From Gracilimonas mengyeensis (lineage in GTDB: Bacteria; Bacteroidota; Rhodothermia; Balneolales; Balneolaceae), in assembly GCF_900182705.1 (NCBI RefSeq), contig NZ_FXTP01000002.1:62001-126000 (forward strand): a stretch of 64,000 nucleotides of DNA, read 5' to 3'. The translations under genes were made by a program, and so were the position numbers. Positions 16,059 through 59,755 of the stretch are shown here, piece by piece. How positions within the stretch are numbered: the stretch's first letter is position 1; every line of letters starts with the position of its first letter. Under the pieces are notes generated by a model. That model was not told where the DNA came from. It did no database searches and saw nothing but the letters and a program-made list of their open reading frames with translations.

Positions 16059-16335
16059 TTAACGTGAGTTCGATATAAAACCCGTCATCTTGAGCCGTTA
16101 ATTTTGCCCAAAGCCGGAGTAATATCATTGAAGATATGACAGCATCTGTGATGAGTAGTCATCGCGGGCCCAGACCCGAGATCTCCTAACTACCGGCAAC
16201 GCTGGACAACAACGGTGCCATGGTGTGTGCTACGCCATGTGTAGGGAGAACCCGGTTCTGTGATTCCGCTGCGCTACATCTTGACCGGGATGACAGGTCT
16301 ACTTTCGTGCCGTTCTTATCTCCAACTGACGTTAA
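16059..16335. repeat. MITE-like element, complete copy, 277 bp
   Basis: Left end TTAACGTGAGTTCGATATAA and right end (reverse complement) TTAACGTCAGTTGGAGATAA match at 17 of 20 positions. The interior near the right end reads, in reverse complement, GTCATCCCGGTCAAGATGTA and then GCGCAGCGGAATC, nearly identical to the flank of the IS110 element at 57041-57074. No coding capacity. Confidence 0.8.
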
Positions 16336-55597: not shown

Positions 55598-55684
55598 GCT
55601 GTTTGGTATTAAGATAATTTACCCTTCGTTCCACACGCTCCGCGTTGGAGCGCAATAGTTAACTTCATATGCTATTGAACTAAA

Positions 55685-55696
55685 TAACGTGAGTTC
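55685..55696 (+). repeat. Left terminus of the MITE-like element split by the IS
   Basis: TAACGTGAGTTC here and the segment 57014-57187 form one MITE-like element when the IS is removed. The right end of that segment, in reverse complement, starts TTAACGTGAGTTC. Confidence 0.75.
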
Positions 55697-55731
55697 TATT
55701 AGACTACCCCTGACTTGTGAGAACAAGTAAA

Positions 55732-55923
55732 CTGGTTATTTTTTACTAGTATAAATAACCAGCCAGCCACAGAAAGGCTACACGTGAGTTCAGAGCATTA
55801 GACTCTATATCTCGAATAAGCCCCTGTGGCTGTACTATATTACCGAAATCTTAATAGCATGCCAGTCCTTGCTGGGAAAACTTCTAGCAAAAAGACTACT
55901 AATAGAATTAGTTGCGGTAATAT
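55732..55923 (+). ncRNA. Predicted bridge RNA of the IS110 element (target loop and donor loop readable)
   Basis: Three hairpins in order. (1) CTGGTTATTT/AAATAACCAG, 55732-55762. (2) CAGCCACAG/CTGTGGCTG, 55764-55832, whose loop holds ACGTGAGTTC (55782-55791), identical to the left target 55687-55696, and TATCTCGAA (55808-55816), the reverse complement of the right target 57011-57019. An AGAG/CTCT hairpin separates them. (3) ATATTACCG/CGGTAATAT, 55837-55923, whose loop holds ATAGCAT (55854-55860), identical to the IS right end 57005-57011, and CTAATAGAA (55899-55907), the reverse complement of the IS left end 55694-55702. This matches the known order of 5' stem-loop, target loop and donor loop. 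Confidence 0.88.
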
Positions 55924-55964
55924 GATGCTGGTTTAACTACCTAAATTTAAAATCCTATCTTTTT

Positions 55965-56990
55965 ATGGAATCTTCAACTTTTGCTGATTCAGTCAATCAC
56001 TTTGTAGGCATTGATGTATCTAAAGGGTGGCTGGATTGTTATTTACGACCGCTGGAACAATACATACGAGTGAATAATGATTCCCAGGGGTTTAAACAAC
56101 TTGCCGAATGGCTGGACAGGCACGGGGCTGATCGCTCCACAACAATTCTTTGCATGGAAAACACCGGAATTTATGATGATCGTCTGTTGGGATTCCTGCA
56201 AACGGCAGGATGGAACTGTGCTGTTGAGAAAACCACGGTATTAGACAAGGTGACCCCGGAGCATCATCGCAAGGACGATGCCTATGATGCGGCAAAATTA
56301 GCGGAATATGCTGATCGCTATATCGACCATCTGCATCTGTACCGTCCCACACCACAGGCTGTAGAGTGCTTGCGACAGCTGGTTGCCGAGCGGCGGCGGT
56401 TGGTACGCCAACGTGCAGCTGTAAAGACCAAGCAGACCCAATCCACCCACCTTTTGACGGTCAGCGAACAAGTTCGCCGTAGCTGGCAGGCCCAACAGCA
56501 GTGCTATGATGAGCAAATCACCGCCATTGAGCAACGTATCAAAGATCTGATTGCCTCTCACCCGCAAATGAGCTCCTATGACCAGTTATTACAAAGTGTT
56601 CCAGGCGTGGGAGAAGTAACCAGCTGGTTATGGCTGATTCTGTTCTATGGCCAACAAACCCTGGATGCCAAACAGATTGCCTCCCGATTCGGGTTTGCTC
56701 CCCATTCAAAAACCTCCGGCAGTTCGATACAAGGTCAAACCCGCTCCTCGGGGCACGGAGCCTCCCAAATGAGGCAATGCATGACGTTAGCTGCTCGTTC
56801 GGCCAGCACACATTACAAAAAGTTCAGAGACTACAAACAAATCAAACAACGTGAAGGAAAAAACTGGCCCATTGTGCGAAATAATATTATCAATAAACTG
56901 ATCAAAATTATGTGTGCAATTTGGAACAGCGGCTGCCAATACCAAGTGAATCACACCTCTCGGTTTGATCAACAGAAAAATGCCGCATAA
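55965..56990 (+). CDS. IS110-family DEDD transposase (bridge-RNA-guided recombinase)
   Basis: 341 residues. The RuvC-like N-terminal domain carries Asp17 (GIDVSKG), Glu65 (CMENTG) and the Asp105/Asp108 pair (KDDAYDAAKLAEY), the DEDD set. A coiled-coil-like linker (about 140-200) leads to the Transposase_20 domain, with VPGVGEVTSW near residue 210 and the GQTRSSGHGAS segment holding candidate catalytic Ser261 or Ser262. The gene is not frameshifted. The guide RNA is encoded just upstream, as in the IS110 group proper (IS1111 types place it downstream). Confidence 0.95.
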   Translation: MESSTFADSVNHFVGIDVSKGWLDCYLRPLEQYIRVNNDSQGFKQLAEWLDRHGADRSTTILCMENTGIYDDRLLGFLQTAGWNCAVEKTTVLDKVTPEHHRKDDAYDAAKLAEYADRYIDHLHLYRPTPQAVECLRQLVAERRRLVRQRAAVKTKQTQSTHLLTVSEQVRRSWQAQQQCYDEQITAIEQRIKDLIASHPQMSSYDQLLQSVPGVGEVTSWLWLILFYGQQTLDAKQIASRFGFAPHSKTSGSSIQGQTRSSGHGASQMRQCMTLAARSASTHYKKFRDYKQIKQREGKNWPIVRNNIINKLIKIMCAIWNSGCQYQVNHTSRFDQQKNAA

Positions 56991-57013
56991 TACTTGAAAA
57001 AGTCATAGCATTC

Positions 57014-57187
57014 GAGATAAGAATGACACGAAAATAGGCCCGTCATCCCGGTCAAGATGTAGCGCAGCGAAACCGCAGAACCGGATCTTCCGGACATGGC
57101 GAGATACTCACCATTACCTCGTTGTTGCCCAATTGCGGGCAAAATTAACACCTTAAAATAACGGGTTTTATACTGAACTCACGTTAA
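57014..57187. repeat. Right part of the MITE-like element split by the IS
   Basis: GAGATAAGAATGACACGAAA and the following ATAGGCCCGTCATCCCGG match the reverse complement of the right end of the copy at 16059-16335. The far end at 57122-57187, in reverse complement, matches that copy's left end over about 60 bases, including TATAAAACCCG and GTTAATTTTGCCC. Confidence 0.8.
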
Positions 57188-57191
57188 ATAG

Positions 57192-57250: not shown

Positions 57251-57907
57251 TTAGTTATCTAACCGGAAGTTAATTGAGAGTGAATACTGTACTCTAACCG
57301 GTCGCCCCCGTTGCATGCCTGGCTCAAATTCAGCCTGTCTAACGGCTTTAAGGGCTTCTTCATCACATCCGCCGCCAATACCACGAACTACGCGGGGGTT
57401 TTCAACTTCTCCTTCTTCATTTACAATAAACTGAACGGTAACGCGGCCTTCTATACCAGCGCGGCGTGCCATTTCAGGGTATTTTACGTTTGATTGTAAT
57501 TCAGCCATTCCGCCTTTCAACTTCGGCATCTGTTCTACAACCACGAAGAAATCCTCTTCTTCGTCTGCTTCGTCGTCAGGGGGAGGTGGGAGGTCCATCT
57601 TTTGATTCATATTCAACTCTGCATCGAGATCAATAACCTCATCCTCAATGACTTCATCATTTGGTACCTCAACCGGAACCGGGGGACGTGGGGGTGGAGG
57701 TGGAGTTTCAACCTGTTTGGTTTGTACCACTTCTTCCATTTCCACTACTTCCTGTTCATCCAACTCAACGGCTTTGGGTGGTTCATCTTCTATATTCACT
57801 TTTACAACGACAATCATGATCAGCAGGGCAAGAATGATACCTGCTTCAAGAAGTACCGTGTAAGAGCGCCGTAAATCTGCTTTGGGAGATTTTCTCTTAT
57901 TCTTCAT
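57251..57907 (-). CDS. TonB energy-transducer protein (copy 1)
   Basis: 218 residues from ATG 57907, with GAGGAG nine bases upstream. The frame could open at a TTG two codons earlier. One N-terminal membrane helix (LLEAGIILALLIMIVVV), a long Pro- and Glu-rich periplasmic linker (TPPPPPRPPVPVEVPND), then the TonB C-terminal domain (about 135-218: MPKLKGGMAELQSNVKYPEMARRAGIEGRVTVQFIVNEEGEV, RGIGGGCDEEALKAV). It transmits proton-motive force to TonB-dependent receptors. It is highly similar to the next gene. No exbB or exbD is in this window. Confidence 0.95.
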   Translation of the reverse strand: MKNKRKSPKADLRRSYTVLLEAGIILALLIMIVVVKVNIEDEPPKAVELDEQEVVEMEEVVQTKQVETPPPPPRPPVPVEVPNDEVIEDEVIDLDAELNMNQKMDLPPPPDDEADEEEDFFVVVEQMPKLKGGMAELQSNVKYPEMARRAGIEGRVTVQFIVNEEGEVENPRVVRGIGGGCDEEALKAVRQAEFEPGMQRGRPVRVQYSLSINFRLDN

Positions 57908-58170
57908 ATTCAAACACTCCTCTGTTTAATTAAGATTAAATTCAGTGCATGAAGCGTGATAGCACTGTCGACCCTTTATTTACTCTCTAAACTAAAGTAA
58001 TATCAGGTTTGTACCTACTTAATACTCCAACAAAAATAATGCTGGAAGCGTTTTTCTGTAACATAATAGGGTTTTAACGGCTTCTCAAGTGAATTATTCC
58101 ATTGGGTTTTAGTCACAGAACAGACAGCAGAAGGAAAGGCAGCGGAAGGGGAAAATTGGGTGAATAAAAA
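57908..58170. other. Gap between TonB genes 1 and 2
   Basis: With the adjoining terminator this gap is about 310 bases. It should hold the promoter of TonB gene 1. The GTTTGTACC-like run and TTACTCTCTAAAC are unremarkable. I see no operator of the xylan-regulon type and no gene. Confidence 0.4.
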
Positions 58171-58219: not shown

Positions 58220-58873
58220 TTAGTTTTCCAGACGGAAGTTGATGGATAGTGCATACTGTACACGAACGGGACGTCCGCGCTGCATACCTGGCTCAAATTC
58301 AGCTTGTTTAACAGCTTTGAGCGCTTCTTCATCACAACCACCGCCAATACCACGAACTACACGGGCATTTTCAACATTGCCCTGTTCGTTTACGATGAAC
58401 TGAACTGTAACACGGCCTTCAATACCAGCGCGTCGTGCCATTTCAGGATAGCTAACACTTCCCTGAAGTTTAGCCATTCCGCCAATAAGCTTAGGCATCT
58501 GTTCTACTACCACAAAGAAGTCCTCTTCTTCCTCTTCTTCAGGAGGAGGGGGTGGCAGATCCATTTGTTGGTTCATATCCAGTTCAGCATCTAAGTCAAT
58601 GATTTCATCTTCAATGATTTCATCATTAGGAACTTCCACAGGAACTGGAGGTCGTGGAGGTGGAGGAGGTGTCTCAATTTGCTTGGTCTGGACTACTTCT
58701 TCCATCTCTACTACTTCCTGCTCATCAAGTTCTACAACCTGAGGGGGTTCGTCTTCTATATTTACTTTAACAGCGAGGATCATCACCAGAAGTGCAAGAA
58801 TCAAGCCTGCCTCTAAATAGACAGTATATGATTTCTTGAGATCCGCTTTAGGGGATTTTCTTTCATTTATCAT
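58220..58873 (-). CDS. TonB energy-transducer protein (copy 2)
   Basis: 217 residues starting at ATG 58873, with the same layout as copy 1: NERKSPKADLKKSYTVYLEAG, one membrane helix, VEMEEVVQTKQIETPPPPPRPP, DLDAELDMNQQMDLPPPPPEE, then the C-terminal domain VSYPEMARRAGIEGRVTVQF. Most positions are identical to the gene at 57251, so this is a recent tandem duplication. The linkers differ in length and acidity, which may alter reach across the periplasm. Together with the third copy it gives three transducers next to each other. Confidence 0.95.
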   Translation of the reverse strand: MINERKSPKADLKKSYTVYLEAGLILALLVMILAVKVNIEDEPPQVVELDEQEVVEMEEVVQTKQIETPPPPPRPPVPVEVPNDEIIEDEIIDLDAELDMNQQMDLPPPPPEEEEEEDFFVVVEQMPKLIGGMAKLQGSVSYPEMARRAGIEGRVTVQFIVNEQGNVENARVVRGIGGGCDEEALKAVKQAEFEPGMQRGRPVRVQYALSINFRLEN

Positions 58874-58999: not shown

Positions 59000-59656
59000 T
59001 CAGCCGCGTAAAAGAATGAATTGAACGGTTTCTTTGATTTTGAATTGAGCCGGTTTGCCAGCCTTTTTACCGGGTTTATAGCGTTGCATTTTGATGGCTT
59101 TAAGTACCGCACGGTCACATCCGCCGCCTATCCCGCGTGTAATAACTGGTTCCAGTACCCGGCCATTTTCATCCACGGTAAATTCTACTTCAACGATGCC
59201 CTCGATGCCTGCTGCTTTGGCCCATTCGGGGTAAGGGATACTCTTTCTGAAGGCTTCTTCGCCGCCTACCATCTGGGGCAGTAACTCAATTTTACTGAGC
59301 TTGTCGTAATCCACTTCAATCTCAATTTCCCGGGCAAGTTTTGGGATTTCAATGTTGCTTTGCCGGGTTACTTCCGGAAAATATAGTTCCGGTATCTCAA
59401 GTGGGCGGTCGTCGGGCAGTGTAATAGGAACTTCAGGTGCAAGAGGTGGTTTGGGAAGAGTCTTTTGTACAGCAATGGTGGAGGGCAGCACTAAGGCCGC
59501 TTCATCACTTTCACCGTAAACAACGGGCGCTGAGTATCGTTCTGGTAAGTGAACATTGGTCACACCAATCAAAAAAAGAAGCGTTAGTATAACGCCTGTT
59601 TCCACCCTGATAGCATATGGCCAAGCATAATCGGTAATTTTATTTCTTTTGCGCAT
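59000..59656 (-). CDS. TonB-like energy-transducer protein (copy 3, diverged)
   Basis: 218 residues from ATG 59656. The open frame extends to 59725 but only MRKRNKITDYAWPYAIRVETG gives a membrane-helix start. The C-terminal domain (SIPYPEWAKAAGIEGIVEVEFTVDENGRV, RGIGGGCDRAVLKAIKMQRYKPG) is TonB, but the linker is shorter and lacks the poly-Pro run of copies 1 and 2. It is followed by a short tail, QFILLRG. It is 126 bases upstream of copy 2 in transcription order. Confidence 0.9.
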   Translation of the reverse strand: MRKRNKITDYAWPYAIRVETGVILTLLFLIGVTNVHLPERYSAPVVYGESDEAALVLPSTIAVQKTLPKPPLAPEVPITLPDDRPLEIPELYFPEVTRQSNIEIPKLAREIEIEVDYDKLSKIELLPQMVGGEEAFRKSIPYPEWAKAAGIEGIVEVEFTVDENGRVLEPVITRGIGGGCDRAVLKAIKMQRYKPGKKAGKPAQFKIKETVQFILLRG

Positions 59657-59755
59657 GGTATTTGCCCTGATGATTGACAAAGCCTCTATTAAAATAATAA
59701 AAAAGAACCTTTGGTGGGCAGGCAAAAAAGAAAAGTAGCTGGAAAAAGCTTAGGA

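Follow-up and report, generated by a model that had tools for sequence, protein, structure and literature searches.

An IS110-group insertion sequence of Gracilimonas mengyeensis with a predicted bridge RNA whose guides match the end of a MITE-like repeat

The closest described system is IS621 of Escherichia coli (PMC11208160, PMC11208158), whose recombinase combines a DEDD RuvC domain with a serine Tnp domain. The left end of IS621 encodes a bridge RNA with a target loop and a donor loop that carry four guides, and recombination takes place at a dinucleotide core. Residues D11, E60, D102, D105 and S241 of the recombinase have been shown to be essential (PMC11208158). A promoter rebuilt at the junction between the right end (RE) and left end (LE) drives the bridge RNA from the excised circle (PMC11208160), and IS621 inserts into a dispersed repeat, the REP. 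ISCro4 (PDB 9t56), another IS110-family member, has the same recombinase architecture, and the likeness drawn to it below is one of protein alone.

Insertion into other repeated or mobile sequences is also known. IS4321 and IS5075 enter the terminal inverted repeats of another transposon, of the Tn21 family (as cited in PMC11187229), and ISKpn4 and ISPst6 are directed to one end of integron attC sites (PMC11187229); REPs, Tn21-family inverted repeats and attC sites are thus all documented landing sites of IS110/IS1111 elements (PMC11208160, PMC11187229). In the literature searched, which left most subscription papers outside, we found no description of a MITE end as an IS110-group target, and the search returned no paper on the IS110 elements of Gracilimonas.

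The window analysed here is a stretch of 64,000 nucleotides from Gracilimonas mengyeensis, and its sequence identifies an intact-looking IS110-group insertion sequence (Table 1). Very probably this is an IS621-like element with RNA-guided targeting of the end of a MITE-like repeat. A preliminary description had recognized an IS110-family element at 55687-57019, and matches to Pfam, NCBIfam and solved relatives bear this out. With the cut placed after the TC core, following IS621, the element is 1317 bp long. It has no terminal inverted repeats, and comparison with uninterrupted copies of the target repeat shows a seamless insertion apart from the TTC that includes the core, the only sequence common to both junctions. 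Every defining feature of the IS110 group that can be read from sequence is present. The IS1111 group, in which the RNA region is expected 3′ of the gene, was considered and rejected: the structured region here lies 5′ of the gene, and only 21 nt separate the stop codon from the right core, which counts against an IS1111-type downstream RNA. The same features set the element apart from IS4321 and IS5075, which belong to the IS1111 group with RNA downstream of the gene and subterminal inverted repeats, and which insert into a family of full transposons, where the present element enters a MITE-like repeat.

Table 1. Coordinates of the element, its predicted RNA and the interrupted repeat in the window.
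Feature	Position	Strand	Basis
IS110-group insertion sequence, core to core	55697-57013	+	junctions compared with intact target-repeat copies
Left core dinucleotide TC (target copy)	55695-55696	+	common to both junctions and most relatives
Right core dinucleotide TC (donor copy)	57012-57013	+	common to both junctions; relatives
5′ stem-loop of predicted bridge RNA	55732-55762	+	fold of 55697-55964
Predicted target-binding stem-loop, basal stem CAGCCACAG/CTGTGGCTG	55764-55832	+	fold, stem compensation
Left target guide ACGTGAGTTC	55782-55791	+	identical to left flank 55687-55696, 10/10
Right target guide TATCTCGAA	55808-55816	+	reverse complement of TTCGAGATA 57011-57019, 9/9
Predicted donor-binding stem-loop, basal stem ATATTACC/GGTAATAT	55837-55923	+	fold, 7-sequence alignment
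Left donor guide ATAGCAT, 7 nt, core excluded	55854-55860	+	same as right end 57005-57011
Right donor guide CTAATAGAA	55899-55907	+	reverse complement of left end TTCTATTAG 55694-55702
RE-LE donor sequence (with flanks) ATAGCATTCTATTAG			
IS110 recombinase gene, 341 aa	55965-56990	+	domain and family models, solved relatives, residue alignment
-35-like hexamer TTGAAA, right end	56994-56999	+	joins left end in circle, 17 bp spacing
-10-like hexamer TAGACT, left end	55700-55705	+	same junction comparison
Left target-site duplication TAAATA of interrupted MITE-like repeat	55681-55686	+	repeat copies compared
Left half of MITE terminal inverted repeat (left target)	55687-55696	+	repeat copies compared
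Remainder of MITE-like repeat, opposite inverted repeat GAACTCACGT at end	57014-57184	+	repeat copies
Right target-site duplication TAAATA of MITE-like repeat	57185-57190	+	repeat copies compared

The IS110 identity of the element is established by its protein-family matches. The recombinase carries the Pfam domains PF01548 (IS110 RuvC-like) and PF02371 (Tnp), of the DEDD/serine type, and scores 145 bits against the NCBIfam model NF033542, 'IS110 family RNA-guided transposase', for which the cut-off is 140. The only solved relatives are ISCro4 and IS621 (E about 1e-26), with ISCro4 the best-scoring chain. Both are distant in sequence (phmmer E 6e-26 for IS621). All five catalytic residues of IS621 have counterparts, with D17, E65, D105, D108 and S251 aligning to D11, E60, D102, D105 and S241. 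The likeness to IS621 extends to the left-end RNA with two loops and four guides, the dinucleotide core, the promoter rebuilt at the RE-LE junction and the insertion into a dispersed repeat. The two elements differ in that the core is TC here and CT in IS621, the right target guide is 9 nt here and 4 in IS621 (longer right target guides have been reported in other orthologues; PMC11208160), the right donor guide is contiguous here and interrupted in IS621, the left donor guide here ends before the core, and the target is a MITE end and not a REP.

Joining the right end to the left end brings the two hexamers together as TTGAAA-17 bp-TAGACT, and the pattern TTGAnn-17 bp-TAGAYT is kept in 10/10 elements. 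By analogy with IS621 this junction would probably act as a promoter in the circle.

The non-coding region 55697-55964 folds at -74.4 kcal/mol (z = -4.96) into three stem-loops, as the preliminary description had proposed, and the guides sit within the inner loops of the two larger ones. The stems have been kept through compensatory changes, so that the hairpins also withstood the covariance analysis named beforehand as a possible refutation. At the base of the target loop, 63 of the 64 stem pairs read across eight elements are standard, single positions showing as many as four types of pair, and only 2 of 40,320 exchanges of stem arms between elements do equally well; a 7-sequence alignment has both-sided changes at 14 of the 36 predicted pairs. 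A covariance model built from seven copies and searched against 296 genomes of the phylum gave matches at E <= 0.001 confined to Gracilimonas and one sister genus. Among fetched loci held out from the model, it also located the RNA directly upstream of two IS110 genes (L027 and L029, on Saprospiraceae and Microscillaceae MAG contigs) that are only about 29% identical. In an Rfam scan of the window at the gathering score the one match is a tRNA, with none to a bridge RNA. Two other treatments were set aside: RNAalifold on 13 sequences from both clades gave a weak consensus, the loops being misaligned by MAFFT, and was replaced by the 7-sequence alignment and direct reading of the stem arms, and a hand-made structure was dropped, as one of its stems is a base out of register in the Fodinibius rows.

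The six sequence segments quoted in the preliminary description all lie where it had placed them, TTC is present in both junctions, and its assignment of the second and third hairpins as carriers of the target and donor guides holds, with exact positions and with guides that track flanks and ends in relatives. Its statement that the match is complete is correct for the three guides that reach into the core and slightly overstated for the left donor guide (ATAGCATgcc), which stops short of TC. The donor guides match the RE-LE junction over 7 nt on the left, without the core, and 9 nt on the right. The longest words shared by each junction side with the non-coding region are 10 nt (left target), 10 nt (right target, including one donor base), 7 nt (left donor) and 9 nt (right donor), and these lengths were reached by 0, 6, 660 and 91, respectively, of 5000 first-order Markov sequences of that region. 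That such identities arose by chance draws some support from the left donor match, which 13% of the null sequences equal and which by itself is not significant in one element, its support coming from conservation in relatives only. The summed match length of 36, in contrast, was never reached in the 5000 null sequences (mean 22, maximum 30), and the permutation tests described below exclude chance, an explanation of negligible probability that can be regarded as refuted.

Comparison of repeat copies identifies the target as the terminal inverted repeat that bounds a multi-copy, MITE-like intergenic repeat resident in this genome, a point new here that the earlier, sequence-only reading had missed. 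The sequence to the right of the element and the ACGTGAGTTC to its left belong to one dispersed genomic repeat, intact copies of which read ...TTAACGTGAGTTCGAGATAAGAA.... Since the insertion site is the end of a multi-copy repeat, the genome also holds intact examples of the empty site predicted by the guides: the 16-letter sequence ACGTGAGTTCGAGATA occurs in seven uninterrupted copies, and allowing up to three mismatches gives 127 sites in the genome, where the reversed control gives 26. Of the matching sites examined, nearly all occur in inverted pairs roughly 180-275 bp apart. The repeat ends in ACGTSAGTTCGAKATAA, and several copies are bounded by A+T-rich direct repeats of 6-7 bp (TAGTCTA in L082, TAAGCTA in L090, TAAATA at the window element). 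Among exact end-sequence hits, no pair at the spacing of an insertion sequence, such as an autonomous MITE parent would give, was found. Across ten genomes of the genus the exact repeat-end sequence occurs 29 times here, 53 times in a Gracilimonas sp. ALOHA MAG (G028) and at most once in each of the remaining eight. The two repeat-rich genomes both carry the element with this guide, each at a different copy of the repeat. Further repeat loci lie at 16062-16332 of the window and in many places in the G. mengyeensis genome (L002-L013, L062-L091).

The closest relative, L025 in the ALOHA MAG, has 68% identity over most of the protein. Its left target guide is the same as that of the window element and its right guide differs by one base, and it is inserted in another copy of the same MITE-like repeat, with the duplication TAACCTA. 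The surroundings of the two insertions differ, and the insertions are therefore independent in position. Counted against the main reading is a frame change in the L025 recombinase gene at about residue 57-64 (L025 2671-2689), which is either a real frameshift or a MAG assembly error.

In relatives from the same taxonomic order (40-68% identity) the sequences of the first, target-binding loop differ, and the check named in the preliminary description, whether these guides vary together with insertion sites, was passed in an exact permutation test. Over eight guide types the true assignment of guides to flanks, alone among 40,320, reaches a total score of 126 (mean 88). For left guides only the score is 62 against a mean of 42 (1/40,320 assignments), and for right guides only 64 against 46 (4/40,320). 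Longest-common-word matching had misread guides, taking the right guide of an element in G021 as the left, and the loops were therefore compared within their own regions. One clear exception, counted against the reading, is L038, whose right target guide matches its own flank at 4/9 positions only; the outcome was unchanged when this least favourable copy replaced the Fodinibius representative. Also counted against it is the five-copy element of G021, with a left guide that matches its flank at 6/10. The donor guides change with the element's own ends. Between the right donor guide and the left end there is covariation, the variable position pairing as AU:6 UA:6 GC:1, and the left donor guide reads ATAGCAT or ATAGTAT in step with the right end.

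The loop matches might instead be secondary, with flanking repeat sequence captured by recombination, the target recognized through protein or DNA structure and the RNA merely regulatory. A many-copy target makes such capture possible, and the citation of ISPpu9 in PMC11208160 concerns a small RNA proposed to regulate an IS110-family recombinase. This account is nevertheless very improbable, given that the two guides, which lie in a fixed loop register and read opposite strands, both track unrelated flanks in eight guide types, that the donor guides track the element's own ends, and that the RNA-guided mechanism is proven for IS621.

Under RNA-guided targeting the recombinase would, as in IS621, excise the element as a circle, whose RE-LE junction would rebuild the promoter, so that the bridge RNA is transcribed out of the left end. 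The first loop of the RNA would then pair with the target, the left guide with the bottom strand and the right guide with the top strand, reading ACGTGAGTTC and TTCGAGATA, the second loop would pair with the circle junction ATAGCAT-TC-TATTAG, and a tetramer would exchange strands at the TC core. The MITE-like repeat end provides landing sites that are dispersed and mostly non-coding. Sequence comparison establishes how the element is built and what it targets, that guides and targets covary across relatives, that the junction promoter is conserved and that the catalytic residues are intact; the 'programmable recombinase with known specificity' of the preliminary description is what we infer.

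Current mobility is a separate matter. The genome holds a single full copy although free target sites remain, which counts against proven present activity, and the element could be a dead relic with the anatomy as described. The frameshift in L025 and the many deleted remnants in Fodinibius point the same way as the single copy. We consider loss of mobility unlikely: the 341-aa frame is intact, no catalytic residue is missing, the two ends and the promoter hexamers are in place, and the target guides of 10 + 9 nt are exact.

The mechanism is that already known for IS110/IS621 bridge-RNA recombinases, and the evidence for a real element of this kind is strong. From a group that has received little study it supplies a natural bridge-RNA recombinase specified in detail, and since its guides, donor, core, promoter and genuine empty sites are known from sequence, it is directly testable in the laboratory. 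More tentatively, and at somewhat less than even chances, the Balneolales IS110 elements may form a lineage with a contiguous target of about 16 bp, in which the first loop has changed between MITE ends, attC sites and REP-like palindromes, and of which the window branch depends on the ends of another mobile element as a safe harbour, its presence following that of the repeat. One clade with guides changed among such targets would be a natural series for the study of retargeting.

In four Fodinibius-type genomes (G010, G014, G016, G020), IS110-group relatives and deleted remnants lie in integron attC-like sites of the form CCTAACCCGCGCAT...TTATGCGC...GTTAGG (L026, L034, L035, L038, L128, L130, L139, L140). 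As with ISKpn4 and ISPst6 one end of the site is targeted, and unlike those IS1111-group elements the Fodinibius elements are of the IS110 group, with RNA upstream of the gene. All four genomes have integron integrases above the family cut-off, one of them about 4 kb from the L026 element. In a truncated Fodinibius copy (L105, 814-978) the left flank runs straight into the internal left target guide; the two have sequence in common, and the stretch between them looks as if it had been deleted. The five-copy element of G021 (L092-L096, 54% identity) occupies palindromic REP-like sites GATCCCGAGCATTCGGGATC, several copies being at contig ends. The second clade (L097-L104 and L110, in G021 and G022), at about 40-45% identity and with at least eight copies in G021, has the right target TTCGCAATGAC with a matching right guide and apparently lies in repeats reading ...CTCGCAATGAC.

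Fragments of a different, distant IS110-family gene are present at contig ends of the G. mengyeensis genome (L022, L023, L024), in at least two copies, which over 374 bp have 96% identity. A REP-like palindrome CGCTCCGCGTTGGAGCG lies at 55627-55652, immediately left of the element, and similar stretches are found in many places in the genome, with a single occurrence in this window. To the right, on the minus strand, three adjacent related ORFs (57251-57913, 58220-58873 and 59000-59725), judged by eye, resemble TonB-type energy transducers; they are proline-rich with a conserved C-terminal part, and are likely a tandem duplication.
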